Part shown: in pieces, positions 14,948-37,197 of the stretch | Numbering within the stretch: the stretch's first letter is position 1 | Layout of the letters: each line of letters starts with the position of its first letter | Assembly: GCA_030524745.1 (NCBI GenBank) | Contig: JAUNGC010000034.1 | Span: 1-37,197, forward strand | Origin: Eubacteriales bacterium | GTDB lineage: Bacteria; Bacillota; Clostridia; Lachnospirales; Lachnospiraceae | DNA: 37,197 nt | Reading direction: 5' to 3' | The notes under the pieces: generated by a model | The model's database searches: none | Told to the model about the DNA's origin: nothing | What the model saw: only the letters and a program-made list of their open reading frames with translations | Translations under genes and position numbers: made by a program

Positions 14948-15855
14948 TGGCGAAGCATAAAGAGCAGCAGGTGAGCACCGTCCGGCAGGCAAAGCATGGC
15001 GGTCTTCTTACCTTGTTTTTTGTCATTTTAAGTATTGCCTGGATTTTTCCGATTCTGATTGTCGTTTTGAACTCTTTTAAATTGAAAGCGTACATTTTCA
15101 GATATCCGTTTGGACTCAGCGCAAATTCCATTACGGACGGCTGGGATAAATTTATCCAGGGCGCGCAGAAGATCTTCTGCGGATGGCTGAACTATAATAA
15201 CGCCATCACAAAAACCAATTTCTGGTCCAGCTTTGGAAACTCCTTATTTATTACGGTCGGCTCTGTGGTGGTAATCATTCTTTGCTGTTCCATGTGCGCA
15301 TGGTACATCGTGCGCGTAAATACGAAAGGCACAAAACTGATTTATCTGCTGTGCCTGTTTTCCATGATCGTTCCGTTCCAGATGGTAATGTTTACGCTGT
15401 CCAAATTTGCGAATATGCTGCGTCTGTCCAATCCTTTGGGTATTATCGTTGTATATCTGGGATTTGGAGCCGGACTGGCGGTATTCATGTTTACCGGATT
15501 CGTCAAGAGCATTTCCATTGAGATCGAGGAAGCGGCAATGATCGACGGCTGCAGCCCGCTGCAGACATTCTTCCTTGTTGTATTTCCGATTTTGAAGCCC
15601 ACGGTCGTAACGGTGGCGATTCTGGAAGCGATGTGGGTATGGAACGACTTCCTTCTGCCGAGCCTGGTATTAAATATCAACAAGTACAAGACCATTCCGA
15701 TTGCAATTCAGTATCTGAAGCAGAGTCATGGTCAGGTGGACTGGGGCGCAATGATGGCAGTGCTGGTTCTTGCGATTCTGCCGATTGTTATTTTCTATAT
15801 TGCATGTCAGAAGTACATTATAGAAGGTGTTCTGGCAGGCGCGGTAAAGGGCTGA
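14947..15855 (+). CDS. sugar ABC transporter permease (MalG/UgpE-type)
   Basis: This 302-residue second permease has the usual pattern: a first helix at about 20-40 (LFFVILSIAWIFPILIVVLNSF), then an extracellular loop, five more helices and an EAA loop near 195-215 (SIEIEEAAMIDGCSPLQTFF). The conserved EAMWVWNDFLLP segment follows near 225. AAGGAGG lies just upstream and the start overlaps the previous stop by one base. It forms a heterodimer with the preceding permease and takes sugar from the upstream lipoprotein. A strong terminator follows, closing the operon. Confidence 0.94.
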   Translation: MAKHKEQQVSTVRQAKHGGLLTLFFVILSIAWIFPILIVVLNSFKLKAYIFRYPFGLSANSITDGWDKFIQGAQKIFCGWLNYNNAITKTNFWSSFGNSLFITVGSVVVIILCCSMCAWYIVRVNTKGTKLIYLLCLFSMIVPFQMVMFTLSKFANMLRLSNPLGIIVVYLGFGAGLAVFMFTGFVKSISIEIEEAAMIDGCSPLQTFFLVVFPILKPTVVTVAILEAMWVWNDFLLPSLVLNINKYKTIPIAIQYLKQSHGQVDWGAMMAVLVLAILPIVIFYIACQKYIIEGVLAGAVKG

Positions 15856-15898
15856 TTTTTATTGCCGGTTACTGAATGATGAAATAAAAAAGATCAAT

Positions 15899-15925
15899 GG
15901 GGGTGGAATTCCACCCTCTTTTTTT
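15899..15925 (+). terminator. Rho-independent terminator of the ABC importer operon
   Basis: GGGTGG (15901-15906) and CCACCC (15911-15916) with a 4-base AATT loop, extended by a G-U and a G-C pair, are followed by a run of seven T (15919-15925). It lies 44 bases after the second permease stop. Confidence 0.9.
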
Positions 15926-15956
15926 GCCATATAAAGTGGAAGTATGAAGGTATTGA

Positions 15957-15965
15957 TGCTATACT
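15957..15965 (+). promoter_or_regulatory. extended -10 promoter for the leader-peptide/MFS unit
   Basis: TG-C-TATACT (15957-15965) is an extended -10 element located 36 bases before the leader-peptide start. No good -35 is present at 17 bases (TGGAAG), which is usual for extended -10 promoters. Confidence 0.55.
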
Positions 15966-16001
15966 TAACAAGGAACGATATTGTCAGTCGGGAGGTACGA
16001 T

Positions 16002-16082
16002 ATGCTGTGTCATATGAGAATCGATTTAAGCGCTTTGCTCTGTACAAGGTCTGGTGACAGGACGAAACTTGTGCAGAGATAA
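16002..16082 (+). CDS. 26-residue leader peptide upstream of the MFS efflux gene
   Basis: A short frame with a strong ribosome site (GGGAGG ending at 15994, 7 bases before the ATG) begins MLCHMRIDLSALL and ends at TAA 16080-16082. Near its end it contains Arg20-Thr21-Lys22, an R-X-K arrangement like the Arg/Lys-X-Arg/Lys motifs at which macrolides stall ribosomes on leader peptides. Its coding sequence contains both arms of an 11-bp stem (16038-16048 with 16068-16078), and its stop abuts a second hairpin. The downstream gene is a MefA-like efflux pump whose own start is 95 bases after this stop. I infer a drug-sensing leader, as known for erm and mef genes; the peptide itself I do not recognise. 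Confidence 0.6.
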   Translation: MLCHMRIDLSALLCTRSGDRTKLVQR

Positions 16083-16113
16083 CCGGCAATGAGCCATAGA
16101 AGGCTCGGTGGCT
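16038..16113 (+). promoter_or_regulatory. attenuator-like RNA leader with competing hairpins
   Basis: Stem 1: CTCTGTACAAG (16038-16048) pairs with CTTGTGCAGAG (16068-16078), ten Watson-Crick pairs and one wobble, 19-base loop. Stem 2: GAGCC (16091-16095) pairs with GGCTC (16102-16106), supported by ACCG (16082-16085) with CGGT (16106-16109). Stem 2 alternative: AGCCA (16092-16096) pairs with TGGCT (16109-16113), directly followed by ATTTT. The last two cannot form together. This fits a ribosome-position-dependent switch controlled by the leader peptide, but no strong terminator T-run is present. Confidence 0.55.
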
Positions 16114-16176
16114 ATTTTCGTCCGCATTGGATTTTGTACTTATGGAAAAGAAAAAATCTATAAGGAGATAAATTCA

Positions 16177-17481
16177 ATGGATCGTAATTTAAAAAAATAT
16201 GTTGTTTTCTGGCTGAGCCAGTCGGTATCACAGTTGGGGAGCGCGATGACCGGATTCGCGCTGATTTTATGGGTTTACACGGTTAATCATTCAGCCTTCA
16301 CGGTTTCTCTGATGTCTTTCTGCAATTATGTACCATACATTATCGTCAGTTTGTTTGCGGGGACATTTGTGGACAGGCACAGTAAAAAAGGAATCATGCT
16401 GACAGCGGACAGCGTCGCGGCAGTTTGCAGTGCGTTTGTGCTGATAATGGGGGTCTTGAACGGATTGCAGATTTGGCATATCTATTTTGTGAACGGCATC
16501 ATAGGTTTTATAAATGCTTTTCAGGGACCCGCTTCAAGCGTTGCGATTGGAAGGATTGTGCCGAAGGATAAGCTGGCAAATGCAAGCGGCATGGAGTCGT
16601 TTTCACGGAATTTGTCCACGGTGCTTGCACCGGTTCTGGCATCCTGCCTGTTTGCATGGAGTGGAATGAAGGCGGTTTTGCTGATTGATTTATGCAGCTT
16701 TGCAGTCGCTTTTCTGGTGCTGCTGTTTGTCATTCCGATTCCTGAAAATGAGGAGCATGAAACGGAAAGGAAATCCGTTTTTTCGGGCGTCAGAGCGGGA
16801 TATGCTTTTCTTGCGCACAACAGGGGGATTTTAACAATTGTAGTGACCCTGGCGGTGCTGAATTTCTTTTCCAGGCTGACCTATGAGAACATTCTTTCGC
16901 CAATGATTCTTGCAAGAAGCGGGAATAACAGTCTGGCGCTGGGAATCGTAAACGCGGCGATGGGAATCGGCGGCATAGCCGGAGGAATGATTGTCTCGAC
17001 TGGTAAGGTATCAAAAAACAGCGTAAAAATGATATATGTTTCTGCGTTCATATCCTTTCTATTCGGGGATTTGTTGATGGGAGCAGGAAGAAATACCGCT
17101 GTCTGGACAATTGCTGCTGTAGCCGCAAGTCTGCCGATTCCGTTTATCAATGCGGGACAGAATGTGATCCTGTACCAAAACGTGCCGGACGAAATGCAGG
17201 GCAGAGTGTTTTCGGCCCGCAATGCCATACAATATGGTACGATTCCTGTCGGCATTCTTCTGGGCGGCTTTCTGGCTGATTATGTGTTTGAACCTCTTAT
17301 GCAGTCTGAGAACATAGTCACAGCAGTATTGCATGGGATTGTCGGGAAGGGCGCGGGAAGCGGTATGGCAGCGATGTTTTTGTGCACCGGGATATTGGGC
17401 AGCCTGTTCAGCCTCATCGCATACCGGAGAAAAGAGATACGGGAAATGGAACGTATGAGCAGGAAAGGGGAATCGAAATGA
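16177..17481 (+). CDS. MFS drug efflux transporter, MefA-like (DHA3 family)
   Basis: This 434-residue pump has 12 expected helices. The N-terminal segment FWLSQSVSQLGSAMTGFALILWVY, the motif-A region AGTFVDRHSKKG and the mid-protein QGPASSVAIGRIVPKD block are characteristic of the macrolide-efflux (MefA-like) group of MFS. The ATG at 16177 has AAGGAGAT 8 bases upstream; the frame is open back to 16108 but that part is leader sequence. It would export a hydrophobic drug, perhaps a macrolide, by proton exchange; the substrate is inferred. Expression is probably governed by the leader peptide and hairpins upstream. The stop overlaps the next ATG (ATGA), coupling it to an acetyltransferase gene. 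Confidence 0.9.
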   Translation: MDRNLKKYVVFWLSQSVSQLGSAMTGFALILWVYTVNHSAFTVSLMSFCNYVPYIIVSLFAGTFVDRHSKKGIMLTADSVAAVCSAFVLIMGVLNGLQIWHIYFVNGIIGFINAFQGPASSVAIGRIVPKDKLANASGMESFSRNLSTVLAPVLASCLFAWSGMKAVLLIDLCSFAVAFLVLLFVIPIPENEEHETERKSVFSGVRAGYAFLAHNRGILTIVVTLAVLNFFSRLTYENILSPMILARSGNNSLALGIVNAAMGIGGIAGGMIVSTGKVSKNSVKMIYVSAFISFLFGDLLMGAGRNTAVWTIAAVAASLPIPFINAGQNVILYQNVPDEMQGRVFSARNAIQYGTIPVGILLGGFLADYVFEPLMQSENIVTAVLHGIVGKGAGSGMAAMFLCTGILGSLFSLIAYRRKEIREMERMSRKGESK

Positions 17482-18353
17482 AAAATATAACAACCAGACA
17501 ATATCGCATTCTGGCCGATCATATGGATATCTATCAGTTCATGCTGGAAGTTTACGAAAGGGACTGGAAAAACGGCGTCCCGGCGCCGTTTTTGGAGTAC
17601 GCGCTATCTTCGGTCTGGATGGATAAAACGTATACCTATAAAAACAGAATCTGGCTTGACGGTGACAGGATCGTGGGTTTTGTTTTCTATGAGAATCCTG
17701 TGACGGATATTTATTTCAGCCTGCGGCCGGGCTATGAGGAACTCGCATCAGAGATGGTCGCCTATGCGGATCAGAATATGCCTGATTTGAACGGAAACAG
17801 ACAGTTTGTTATTTTCGGGGGCCAGGATGCCATCCGGAAGGCGGCGCAGGAATTGGGCTATCATATGGCGGGCGAGTACGTTCAGATGCAGTATGATTTT
17901 GATAAACCGCTGGAATATACGCTTCCTGAGGGATTTCGGTTTGTACCGCAGGGAACGTATGATGTGGAAAAAATCGAGCAATGCTGCTGGAAGGGCTTTG
18001 ACCATGAAGCGGAAGAAGGGCCCTGGAACGGTGATGCCAGAAATAACTATCAGTTATGCCAGGCCCCTCATGCAACGATGGAGTATGGAGTGGCGGTGGA
18101 GAACGAAGCCGGGGAATATGTCTGCTGGGCAGGAATGTGGTGGACGCCGGAGAACCGCCTGGCGTATATGGAACCGCTGTGCACGGCGCCGAAGTACAGG
18201 CGTCTCGGCCTTGCCTCAGCCGCGCTTTCGGAATTGTACCGCCGCATGAAGCCGTTGGGCGCGACGCATATGACCGGCGGCGGAGATCCTTTCTATGAAA
18301 AAATCGGCTATCGTCCGGCAGTCACATGGACCTTCTGGAAAAAAGGAAGATGA
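17478..18353 (+). CDS. GNAT-family N-acetyltransferase
   Basis: This 291-residue cytoplasmic enzyme transfers an acetyl group from acetyl-CoA. The C-terminal GNAT core (about 160-285) has the CoA-binding motif in CTAPKYRRLGLASAALSEL and the strand-final GGGDPFYEKIGYR. The N-terminal half is also GNAT-like in pattern (DRIVGFVFYENP), so this may be a tandem-GNAT protein. The start ATG at 17478 overlaps the efflux gene stop by 4 bases, and AAAGGGGAA lies upstream. The coupling to an efflux pump makes drug or metabolite acetylation plausible, but the acceptor is unknown. It ends 6 bases before the convergent LysR gene. Confidence 0.87.
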   Translation: MKNITTRQYRILADHMDIYQFMLEVYERDWKNGVPAPFLEYALSSVWMDKTYTYKNRIWLDGDRIVGFVFYENPVTDIYFSLRPGYEELASEMVAYADQNMPDLNGNRQFVIFGGQDAIRKAAQELGYHMAGEYVQMQYDFDKPLEYTLPEGFRFVPQGTYDVEKIEQCCWKGFDHEAEEGPWNGDARNNYQLCQAPHATMEYGVAVENEAGEYVCWAGMWWTPENRLAYMEPLCTAPKYRRLGLASAALSELYRRMKPLGATHMTGGGDPFYEKIGYRPAVTWTFWKKGR

Positions 18354-35000: not shown

Positions 35001-37197
35001 GGAGATGCGGATAAGGATACGGATATTGAACTCGTACCGGCGCTGACCTATCATACGGCAGATACGGATGCGGGAATCAGTTATGCGGGGACTCCCGAAG
35101 TAAAGGCGGTTGAGGCGTCTTATGAAGGGCGCACAGGCGTGCTGCATGTGAAATATGCGGACAGGATTTTGAATCCGTCCCCGACGGATGTGGCCCGGCA
35201 CCGCGTTGCCTTTAAACCTGCGGACGGAAGCGCTTTTAACGCCGCTGGCCGCGACGGATATCTGCAGTTTTATATGAGGAATGAAGGTACTTTCAGCGCA
35301 GGTACACCCTACGTCGATTTGAAGGATGGCTCCGGACATACGATCGGAGGCTGGGCGGTTTCCTCGGTGGGCTGGCAGGAAAGCAACAATACGCTCTCAA
35401 GGGGCACCTGGGTAACTGTAAAAATTGATTTGGAGAAGCTGCAGGGAGCGTCCGCGTTTGATTGGAGCAATGTCACGGAAGTGGGCGTTTCATACTGGGA
35501 TAATGGCGATATTTATATTGACGATATCACATTCCATCAGGGAAAAGTGGAATTTGAAAGGTCGACTTTTGAGACGCCGCAGGATAGTATTTCCACTTAT
35601 GGCTCCGTAGCTGCAAAAGCGCTGCAACTGGCGTCCGGCGCAATTTACTCTCTGGAAGACGCGTCTGAGACAAGCGCCGACATTGAGTATTACGTGATCG
35701 ATACGAGCGGATTGATTTCGTTAAGAGGCGGAAAAGCGGCATACTTTTTGGACCAGTTCCGTCTGGGAAGTTATCTTTATCTGGAAGAACAGGTAAACGC
35801 CGATTATTACAATACCTCCTGGGCCTTATATGAAGGCGCCGACAGAGCGCCTTACAGAACAGGATCGGGGGCTGTCATGGATGACGGAAGAACAGAAGAG
35901 ACTGCCTATACTTCTACATTGACGCATAATGGCGCCGGAAAGCCGTCAGAATCCATTTTGTTCAGAAGCAATTCGACGCCAAATGTGACGACTACTCCGC
36001 TTAATATCCGGGCAGTCTTTACAAACGAAGTAAAAACGGGAAGTCTGACGATTAAAAAGGAATGGGAGGCTGGCATCAGCCATCCGGACAGCATTACATT
36101 TACCGTTTACTATAACAATATTTTCGGCCAGATCAATCTGGATACGGATATTGTGGGCACATATGTGTTGAACGAAGCGAATAACTGGTCCTATACCGTC
36201 AGCGGCGTTCCGGTCGGTACAGCGTTCAGAATCGTGGAAAATATTCCTGAAGACGCTAACTATGCGCTGGAGAGCGTTACGCCGGTGCCGGATCTGGGAA
36301 CGAAGAACGAGGATGGCAGCTATATCGGAACGATCTGGATGGAAGCGGATTGGCCGGAGACCACAGGATATACGCCTGATGTGGTCGTGACGTTTAAAAA
36401 TGCCGCAGTGCCGGAAGAAGAAAATAAGGTGTTTTATGTGGAGACGGGGAAGGCGACCGCGTTGCCGATGAATTTGACGCAATTAATCGATTTTTCCTCA
36501 GAAGCAAATCCGGTCGATCAGAATTATGATCCGGTGGCGCTGCAGAAGACGCAGTCTGATAGCGGCGACGGTACAGATATTATCTTCGATTCCGCAGCGA
36601 ACAAAACGGGAGTTGTAAATACCAGTTACACGTTTACCTATAATGGGATAAGCGGCGGAAAGAAAGTTACGGGAAAGGTTACCGTTTATACCTACCATAC
36701 GTCGAATGATATATATGTCTTTGACTACGGTTTGAAATCTGACTTGGCAGATGTCTCACATGGGGACGGCATGTTCCAGAATGATTTCGTGTTCAATGAT
36801 GATGCGCAGAAGGTGGATGCGGATAAGACGACGGCCAGCTTCGCCGGCTTAAGGACCGGGGAAGGGAGTTTTGGCAGTTCCGCAGAAAATACCCAGAGCA
36901 AAATTACAGCCGGCAGCGCAAATCTTTCTCTTATTATGAACGACGATACGGATGCCGCGCAGGGCGCGAAACTGGAAGATGAGAGCGCCGCTATATATTT
37001 TGAACCGACGGCCTTTATGGATAAGGAAGAAACTGTGGAGTATCGGACTACAGTGCTTGCGCAGGGAGCGACTTCTGTGCAGGATGCGAGCGACGGCGTA
37101 GAAATGACGGGATCCATTACGGTGATGCCTGCGAGCGTGGTATATTATGAGGATAACTTTGTTGCGATAACAGGAAACGGTACGGAAACCGCGGGCG
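32049..37197 (+). CDS. giant secreted surface protein with fibro-slime and Cna-B-like domains (3' end beyond window)
   Basis: The frame from ATG 32049 is open to the end of the window: 1716 codons and no stop. A signal peptide (basic MKRKLRRLL, hydrophobic core to about 25, cleavage after TAKA near 35) is followed by a Thr/Asp/Gly-rich region with 9-residue repeats (GPTNTDDVT type, about 70-105). Three or four beta-rich modules follow (about 138-540), with openings such as MTVYVKG, DTIYFDA and ETVYVIS that recall starch-binding or carbohydrate-binding repeats. A fibro-slime domain (about 560-960) has the hallmark DDDVWIFIDGELVLDIGGDHG. A Cna-B-like repeat starting GSLTIKKEW (about 1336) and further beta modules follow. 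AGGGAGGAAA precedes; an ATG at 32044 stops after two codons. Likely an adhesin or cell-wall protein; its sortase signal, if any, is outside. Confidence 0.9.
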   Translation, partial: MKRKLRRLLCIALVAMLVTGVMSTDTVITAKAASVSDNALPTESGGDETGQDDAAPSGTSGAGETANTGDVAGSTNTDGVTGPTNTDDVTGPTNTDDATEPADTDGTAGETNSAAAAEPDGTDQPEDADVEEEPASVDFADMTVYVKGADGTPSIAVNGDSGKEEMAAADEAGMVYWYTFDGDLAVSSFIIYDESGVVVTAPDETKNPDFSANTSCFNKETGMWESFSPMKTSDLTLTGNAVMEKGDTIYFDANGNDSFLQDGAVPYVGFKFGTEDGDDVKVNGEFWQAMELVDGKTDLWFYTLPETAVLSSSDSITYAQFRRSSTSGENWKSGTSELRLEEGKNCLKIYSWNSAENWYNDGEWVYYEAIEPAVFAGETVYVISDKGTPQIQLMLDGVPLDLVTMTAVYGTENVYRYTFAKNVAVGTVFSIINGERTEIVSGKGDWNTNTPCYDEASGEWIFYEITVDSLTFRLDLSGSSNAYIWGMKGENRTVLVSGVKSGFNFTYTSEMMEQYDGIQIGWYDGQTGELKIGNLTKIIETEEIINEVTEKGASATLHVGEYVAGVNRSTWWTALNGDPSLNIPAGSFRKDGSKYYVSAVFYDYYSDEELNGNKRNELTGGFSLTSGGDDKIQARYFNLAVSQYFESYAGTDKDLSNTDGTGKVLKPLYFGEFESMNTMSGYYRYDLAYNNGTAWSGQAHQNLVDQTLNSDKNITMNGIELPYFDAEFLRGGNTYGANLGMVFDNVQFPFTKNSEGYWEFDSREADQTLRMKRNTMDGLYFLENTGATEYVHGTNGKAEDDGKPGFFPFNDHSESANAKQLNYGFGMRMDIPFRMTEDGMYTNGTDGSKPITFDFSGDDDVWIFIDGELVLDIGGDHGRVSGSINFADEAGMRATVYYQGSTTSVYDTKTFGRPDANQEHVLTMFYMERGLWESNIKITFNFPLTNQLSVEKQLDTSNVNPDFVNAIRDHLSAFEIVVKNLTTRGDADKDTDIELVPALTYHTADTDAGISYAGTPEVKAVEASYEGRTGVLHVKYADRILNPSPTDVARHRVAFKPADGSAFNAAGRDGYLQFYMRNEGTFSAGTPYVDLKDGSGHTIGGWAVSSVGWQESNNTLSRGTWVTVKIDLEKLQGASAFDWSNVTEVGVSYWDNGDIYIDDITFHQGKVEFERSTFETPQDSISTYGSVAAKALQLASGAIYSLEDASETSADIEYYVIDTSGLISLRGGKAAYFLDQFRLGSYLYLEEQVNADYYNTSWALYEGADRAPYRTGSGAVMDDGRTEETAYTSTLTHNGAGKPSESILFRSNSTPNVTTTPLNIRAVFTNEVKTGSLTIKKEWEAGISHPDSITFTVYYNNIFGQINLDTDIVGTYVLNEANNWSYTVSGVPVGTAFRIVENIPEDANYALESVTPVPDLGTKNEDGSYIGTIWMEADWPETTGYTPDVVVTFKNAAVPEEENKVFYVETGKATALPMNLTQLIDFSSEANPVDQNYDPVALQKTQSDSGDGTDIIFDSAANKTGVVNTSYTFTYNGISGGKKVTGKVTVYTYHTSNDIYVFDYGLKSDLADVSHGDGMFQNDFVFNDDAQKVDADKTTASFAGLRTGEGSFGSSAENTQSKITAGSANLSLIMNDDTDAAQGAKLEDESAAIYFEPTAFMDKEETVEYRTTVLAQGATSVQDASDGVEMTGSITVMPASVVYYEDNFVAITGNGTETAG
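32252..32386 (+). repeat. 27-bp coding repeats in the surface protein linker
   Basis: Five imperfect 27-base units encode 9-residue repeats of the type GPTNTDDVT: GSTNTDGVT, GPTNTDDVT, GPTNTDDAT, EPADTDGTA, GETNSAAAA. They form a Thr/Asp-rich stalk after the signal peptide, and can expand or contract by slippage. Confidence 0.75.

Follow-up and report, generated by a model that had tools for sequence, protein, structure and literature searches.

A predicted ribosome-stalling leader switch ahead of a Mef-like pump gene recurs in gut Lachnospiraceae

We analysed a 37,197-nt stretch of forward-strand DNA (the window; contig JAUNGC010000034.1 of assembly GCA_030524745.1, from a Eubacteriales bacterium of the Lachnospiraceae) and here describe the leader of its Mef-like major facilitator superfamily (MFS) transporter gene (16177..17481). 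Every feature named below lies on the + strand. Upstream of this gene, a short open reading frame (ORF) of 26 codons and a stop codon (MLCHMRIDLSALLCTRSGDRTKLVQR; 16002..16082), identified by ORF calling and its pattern of selection, lies among a set of competing RNA helices. Comparison with relatives and folding calculations suggest that the leader is probably a translational attenuator operated by a ribosome stalled on the leader peptide. Sequence comparison shows that the frame is translated and selected as a peptide, that the helices covary and that the target gene is constant; the stall codon and the direction of switching are predictions from folding. The first-pass annotation of this DNA had proposed that a MefA-like pump gene is preceded by a ribosome-stalling attenuator, and both lines of work lend that proposal good support.

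In the mechanism we propose, hairpin 1:2 would form in the absence of a stall, and segment 3 would sequester the Shine–Dalgarno (SD) sequence and start codon of the MFS gene, keeping it OFF. A ribosome-targeting antibiotic would arrest translation once the nascent chain reads MLCHxxIDL, the P site then holding Leu9 and the A site Ser10. The stalled ribosome would cover the 5′ end of hairpin 1:2 and leave its loop side free, and the freed loop-side strand would pair with segment 3 in helix 1:3 (up to 21 bp), releasing the ribosome-binding site (RBS) and turning the gene ON.

Sequence matches indicate that this leader and its hairpin, which we call class 1, recur in many gut Lachnospiraceae ahead of a drug-pump gene. 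A leader-peptide search returned matches in 4 of 61 genomes, and a four-row peptide profile matched 43 of 397 genomes of the family at E ≤ 0.05, most of the weak rows looking like chance. All 17 profile matches with E < 2e-6 precede an MFS orthologue (L018 being a remnant with 52 matched residues), and an orthologue follows in 1 of the 13 weaker loci fetched. A DNA pattern run on a collection with one genome per species gave at least 119 stretches; among the matches listed, 118 of 119 were judged genuine and 116 of 119 lie directly 5′ of an MFS orthologue (45–75% identity). For the remaining three listed matches, the contig of L055 ends at the start codon, L080 includes no more than the beginning of the MFS frame, and L094 was rejected as a chance match. 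Short MFS frames occur in at least 6 of the listed loci, and 80 record titles name mostly Lachnospiraceae, besides further Clostridia and occasional unexpected labels (Bacteroides, Paenibacillaceae and Tissierellia metagenome-assembled genomes). From the 119 listed matches we removed 3 without an MFS match, 2 duplicates, 6 without a usable leader start, L132 and L149, leaving 106; with the window added, these make up the 107 loci used for folding and for the analysis of selection.

A covariance model built on class 1 (R1) found matches in 3 of 391 Clostridia genomes, all from the window's family, two of them belonging to the training set and so matching by construction. R1 finds a single copy of the switch in the source genome; a 35% pump paralogue in the same genome (G000:C59:84707-85990) has no R1 match in its upstream region (L181). 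Among 26 full-length MFS orthologues (≥49% identity, 397 family genomes; partial orthologues G282 and G240 excluded), 17 carry the leader peptide, 4 carry a diverged element that R1 detected in the upstream region (E 1.8e-6 to 0.006), and for 5 none was found. At one locus (L165, genome G228), an apparently decayed switch lies upstream of an MFS orthologue that is interrupted by two in-frame stops. The 218-nt switch gave no plasmid match, and the class-1 pattern gave none in viral contigs.

The leader ORF has its own SD sequence (GGGAGG, 15990..15995), and both the 26-codon frame and this ribosome site stand as first annotated. Across the 107 loci, the ratio of non-synonymous to synonymous differences (pN/pS) is 0.22 at codons 2–4 and 0.17 at codons 7–10, compared with 0.73 at codons 5–6 and 1.16 at codons 11–12. 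Judged by these ratios, codons 2–4 and 7–10 are under peptide-level selection and codons 11–12 drift; together with the SD sequence, this selection marks the frame as a translated leader. Codons 7–10 encode Ile-Asp-Leu-Ser (16020..16031) and form the proposed stall site, placed there by conservation and folding. Cys3, His4, Ile7 and Leu9 are conserved across leaders, and residues are kept through synonymous codon use (108 leaders), with six codons for Leu2, three for Ile7 and four for Leu9. Some loci lack MLCH and retain an I-[DN]-[LM]-S core, as in MGNQSIDLS and MLTPKIINMS. At codons 13–18 both pS (0.14) and pN (0.10) are low, the pattern expected from RNA-level conservation of a hairpin strand, and codons 19–22 are weakly constrained as peptide (pN/pS 0.82). 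Seven leaders (L007, L008, L043, L053, L065, L118 and L135) repeat an LC unit at their start (MLCLCH), with the distance from IDLS to the stem unchanged. The peptide has no Pfam or NCBIfam match.

Pairing and covariation define the RNA architecture. Hairpin 1:2 joins segment 1 (CTCTGTACAAG, 16038..16048) to segment 2 (CTTGTGCAGAG, 16068..16078) through 11 bp inside the leader frame, the stem that the first-pass annotation had drawn. Segment 3 (CATTGGATTTTGTAC, 16125..16139) has two possible partners. In helix 3:4, predicted by folding and pairing, positions 16125–16134 pair with segment 4 (AAATTCAATG, 16170..16179), which contains the MFS start codon and follows the MFS SD sequence AAGGAG (16162..16167), so that the RBS and start codon are sequestered. 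In the 21-bp alternative, helix 1:3, the 5′ strand GTACAAGGTCTGGTG (16042..16056) pairs with 16125–16139 and positions 16060–16065 pair with 16118–16123; the latter are the first six, conserved pairs between a second 5′ strand, GGACGAAA (16060..16067), and TTTCGTCC (16116..16123). The helices that share segment 3 are mutually exclusive, and one of them sequesters the RBS of the gene. The region folds at −60.6 kcal/mol (z −2.66), beating 200 of 200 dinucleotide shuffles.

Comparative data indicate that helices 1:2, 1:3 and 3:4 are conserved and covarying. In 45 diverse sequences, 92.8% of the pairs of helix 1:3 are standard, and its 33 double-change cells compare with 10.9 when shuffled (0 of 500 shuffles); both sides change in 10 of its 21 pairs, and shifting the partner by one base lowers pairing to at most 49%. 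Helix 1:2 has 97.6% standard pairs, 5 of 11 pairs doubly changed and 16 double-change cells (5.6 shuffled). In the stretch GGACGA:UCGUCC, where the DNA pattern left both strands free, the pairs in the 107 loci vary as AU 81/GC 17/GU 9, CG 102/UA 3/GC 1 and GC 97/AU 9/GU 1. One pair of helix 3:4, free of the pattern on its segment-4 strand, varies as UA 93/CG 13/UG 1, and its segment-3 base also pairs in helix 1:3. The relatives bear out the early reading both in the placement of the leader ahead of an MFS gene and in the covariation of the leader stem, helix 1:2. That reading had rested the switch on two other stems sharing 16092–16095; these can be drawn, but they lie within an insertion of ~30 nt absent from the majority of the 45 aligned sequences, and hence are not the conserved switch. 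The conserved exclusive helices, 1:3 versus 3:4, had been overlooked.

We then placed a ribosome footprint spanning −14 to +16 relative to the P codon on each leader codon in turn, masked it, and computed the RBS-opening energy and pair probabilities (P). Across the 107 loci, the median opening energy changes by −1.8 kcal/mol at codon 8 and −1.1 kcal/mol at codon 9 (dinucleotide shuffles, 0.0); it shifts by at most 0.2 at codons 3–7, is raised at codons 11–22 and is lowered by 0.2–0.4 at codons 24–26. In the window it is lowered by 2.7, 1.8 and 3.2 kcal/mol at codons 8, 9 and 24, respectively. With no ribosome, P(1:2), P(1:3) and P(3:4) of the window are 1.0, 0.0 and 0.99; with codon 9 in the P site they become 0, 0.99 and 0.01, and with codon 10 they are 0, 0.01 and 0.99. 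The share of loci in which P(3:4) falls below 0.5 is highest at codon 9 among codons 3–26 (92%), followed by codon 26 (68%), codon 8 (67%), codons 24 and 25 (48% each) and codons 3–7 (31–36%), and is at most 12% at codons 11–22. In silico, holding a ribosome at one particular leader codon thus releases the RBS, and holding one at codon 24 also does so in the window. The likely stall is the conserved IDLS, which coincides with the best ON codons: we place it there because codon 9 flips the window ON and codons 20–22 leave it OFF, and because both R/K-x-R/K motifs and late codons are poorly kept.

A similar architecture, class 2, has the leader consensus M-x-L-C-I-x-x-A-P-C-[KR]-V-stop and occurs upstream of MFS paralogues of 35–42% identity, where a script recognised it in 39 of 46 regions (47 paralogue rows, G423 lying at a contig end; 38 folded, and L176 seen by eye only). 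These leaders show the same hairpin 1:2 and alternative 1:3, with covariation: 11 double-change cells against 4.0 shuffled in helix 1:2 and 10 against 4.2 in helix 1:3 (0 of 500 shuffles each), the latter with 4 doubly changed pairs, a number equalled by 39 of 500 shuffles. Folding of 38 loci puts the best ON codon at the Cys of L-C-I, with a median of −4.8 kcal/mol, 74% of loci at −3 or lower and shuffles at 0.0. The Ile codon is ATT in all 28 aligned rows, so part of its conservation may be at the RNA level. When R1 was run on the 46 class-2 regions it gave 12 right-strand matches at E ≤ 0.01 (best 2.2e-7) and one wrong-strand row at 0.0066. Because R1 detects class 2 in part and R2, a covariance model built on class 2, misses the window's switch, a common origin of the two classes is likely, not proven. 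At window positions 35418–35494, R2 gave an 18.5-bit match that we judged to be chance.

R2 matched 42 of 391 Clostridia genomes at E ≤ 0.05 (26 at ≤1e-4) from many families, 3 of the 42 being training rows that match by construction; in a phylum-wide draw it matched 1 of 159 genomes at 0.01. Among 30 R2 loci fetched, 19 precede MFS genes, 3 CatA-like genes (L239, L240 and L242, one then followed by a Vat-like gene), 2 Cfr genes (L241 and L244) and 3 CD3324-like genes (L243, L245 and L247), and 3 have no clear target (L238, L248 and L249). In family scans both Cfr proteins score above curated cut-offs, and the CatA-like and Vat-like proteins score below theirs. The one CD3324 protein scanned passes its cut-off, the other two being named by likeness only; an ABC-F frame after another CD3324-like gene is cut by the locus end and falls below its cut-off. 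The best ON codon is predicted 3 to 4 codons 5′ of the stem in 7 of 8 non-MFS class-2 loci, the effect being broad in L243, and in two CatA-like loci later codons release the RBS too. Leaders of two CD3324-like loci have L-V-I at the best-ON position, and the two Cfr-associated leaders have a weak SD sequence and an uncertain start.

Among named species, class 2 precedes MFS homologues in Monoglobus pectinilyticus and Subdoligranulum variabile, and two class-2 pattern matches in viral contigs both lie ahead of MFS-looking frames (by eye). At L206, L212 and L246, part of segment 3 is apparently deleted, leaving the leader hairpin directly 5′ of the MFS gene (by eye). Two plasmid records that carry cfr(C), from C. 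difficile and Campylobacter coli, have no R2 match; in them aph(3′)-IIIa ends 52 bp upstream. R2 also finds nothing at the Pusillibacter CatA-like gene.

CatA acts against chloramphenicol. Record annotation gives Cfr a spectrum of phenicols, lincosamides, oxazolidinones, pleuromutilins and streptogramins. These drug spectra at class-2 loci suggest peptidyl-transferase-centre drugs as the signal, which for class 1 would be an extrapolation from class 2. We tentatively entertain, as somewhat less than an even bet, a broader idea: that one ancestral RNA chassis (helices 1:2 and 1:3 and mimicry of the RBS) has been reused in Clostridia before unrelated genes protecting against such drugs (Mef-like, CatA-like, Vat-like, Cfr and CD3324-like/ABC-F), with interchangeable stall peptides (class 1 using I-D-L-S, class 2 using L-x-I placed a few codons 5′ of the stem), and that the uup RNA of Rfam may be hairpin 1:2 of a transcription-attenuating branch.

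Several observations weigh against a codon-9 stall induced by such drugs. The drug link comes from class 2, class 1 is seen ahead of MFS genes alone, and R2 does not detect the window's own switch. The gain in opening energy reaches 3 kcal/mol or more in just 29% (codon 8) and 17% (codon 9) of the 107 loci, changing the footprint edge by 2 nt (to +14 or +18) shifts the optimum by one codon, and the window stays OFF at codon 8 (P(3:4) 0.94). The state without a ribosome is not firmly OFF in some relatives (mean P(3:4) 0.64), and five of the 26 full-length orthologues lack a recognisable element. Near-perfect pairing of segments 1 and 3 over the 107 loci is partly by construction and inflated, since the DNA pattern fixed or limited much of both segments. 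Finally, a ribosome at codon 24 is predicted to turn the window ON as well (P(1:3) 0.81, involving 16060–16067 with 16116–16123), unlike in about half of the relatives, and relatives are often ON at codon 26, with the stop codon in the A site (median P(1:3) 0.94), where the window itself is OFF (P(3:4) 0.99). Late stalls or slow termination could thus also throw the switch.

We consider it unlikely, however, that a stall near codon 24 or slow leader termination is what is sensed in place of an arrest at codon 9. The ON states at codons 24 and 26 are what such a late event would need, but the shares of loci that are ON there fall short of that at codon 9, the window is OFF at its own stop codon, stop positions range from codon 19 to codon 31, and the conservation of IDLS would be left unexplained. 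Slightly less probable again is a structured leader that involves no regulatory stall, its short frame acting as a mere ramp or coupling device. Against it, both of the mutually exclusive helices that share segment 3 covary, and conservation extends to peptide residues lying outside every helix. Sensing of amino-acid or charged-tRNA shortage (Cys, His, Leu or Ile starvation) is very improbable: the conserved Cys3, His4, Ile7 and Leu9 would suit it, but no regulatory codon is repeated in a run, the choice among synonymous codons is free, and the targets seen are pumps and resistance-type genes.

Least probable of all is a macrolide-type +X+ stall at Arg20-Thr21-Lys22, the site favoured by the first-pass annotation, for although that triplet does lie before the 3′ arm of the leader stem in the window, R/K-x-R/K is found at codons 20–22 in 34 of 98 leaders (RTK or RTR in 29 of 98), 9 of 107 leaders end at codon 19–22, these codons show the weak constraint noted above, and a ribosome there keeps the RBS sequestered, raising the median opening energy by ~4 kcal/mol (1.4–2.2 in the window, where P(3:4) is 1.0). 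The analogy therefore gives no support for a macrolide inducer. The related notion that a ribosome covering the 3′ arm turns the gene ON would, in the folding model, hold for the window at codon 24 and fail at Arg20–Lys22 themselves. A codon-9 arrest on IDLS remains the stall that we favour.

The surroundings of the leader fit translational control. A consensus scan of 15800–16250 finds no intrinsic terminator between leader and MFS gene, its sole site being a terminator-like hairpin (15899..15918) 3′ of the upstream ABC-transporter permease gene; control therefore looks translational, and we rejected transcription attenuation. The extended −10 promoter element TGC-TATACT (15957..15965), previously annotated, is present in the sequence, and a good extended −10 precedes the leader in 38% of 105 class-1 loci, as against 3% in letter shuffles. 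The MFS protein passes the Pfam MFS_1 cut-off; its best NCBIfam row, TIGR00900, falls below the TIGR00900 cut-off, and it misses the curated MefA cut-off (117.6 versus 675 bits). By family scan the pump would thus be called Mef-like, its substrate unproven. A GNAT acetyltransferase gene (17478–18353) overlaps the MFS stop codon and had been taken as coupled to the pump. We rejected it as a constant partner, as tblastn found no homologue in the 119 related loci listed, 81 of which contain a complete MFS gene plus 500 bases or more past it. A different GNAT-like frame lies beside the MFS gene in three loci (L069, L074 and L114, by eye).

The hairpin of uup RNA (Rfam RF03060), GCUCCGUACAA...UGUACGGAGC, resembles hairpin 1:2 of the window. 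The window hairpin aligns to all 48 positions of RF03060 with 17.7 bits, far short of the gathering score of 36.8, which places it outside the family. Matches above the gathering score occur in 5 of 196 Clostridia genomes. A short frame crosses the hairpin in 4 of the 5 loci (L250, L251, L253 and L254, the last by eye), two of them with Arg-Leu-Cys-Ile; the fifth, L252, was fetched off-centre from the hairpin. By eye, RF03060 loci have terminator-like tails followed by MATE-like or ABC-F-like genes, and so differ from the window leader, at which no terminator was found. A 2024 review reports, in its accessible part, no further evidence for the uup motif as a riboswitch (PMC11477304), and the accessible part of PMC11109978 makes no mention of uup or MFS. 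A common origin of the switch and uup RNA would be plausible.

No Rfam family reaches its gathering score in the window, eight related loci have no Rfam match to the switch, and eleven diverged or class-2 regions returned tRNA rows and two rows far below cut-off. Class-1 leader strings are absent from the literature searched, a search outside which most subscription papers lie, and among the literature matches listed for class-2 strings none concerned leaders. The leader described here would thus be a widespread resistance-type switch of gut Lachnospiraceae that matches no Rfam family at its gathering score and for which a stall is predicted to the codon, Leu9 occupying the P site and Ser10 the A site. 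IDLS and L-x-I would be candidates for novel drug-dependent arrest motifs. Were the classes to share one origin, a single regulatory logic would link pumps, CatA-like genes, Cfr and perhaps ABC-F genes, and there would be a testable explanation for the orphan uup RNA motif.

The leader peptide of mef(E)/mel of Streptococcus pneumoniae is reportedly unrelated to that of the window. Both systems place a leader before an MFS efflux-type gene; as described in the accessible text, mef(E)/mel, a macrolide-efflux system, is controlled by transcription attenuation (PMC4335068), whereas no terminator was found here. The available portions of two further papers describe related systems. In the cplR 5′ leader of C. 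difficile, a stall on an upstream ORF (uORF) frees the SD sequence of the resistance gene, with lincomycin and retapamulin as inducers (Obana et al. 2023; PMC10201436). The window leader shares with it a clostridial host, a short uORF and, as proposed here, a stalled ribosome that releases the SD sequence of a resistance gene; it differs in that the cplR uORF is MR[I/M], with an intrinsic terminator and an ABC-F gene, against 26 codons, no terminator found and an MFS pump in the window. Induction through ErmCL requires the ribosome to stall when codon 9 occupies the P site (PMC13148051), and folding here likewise favours codon 9; relative to the ermC translational attenuator, the window leader encodes another peptide, pairs segment 1 plus its loop with segment 3 and precedes a pump gene. 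The mode of action proposed for this switch is already known from ErmC and CplR.

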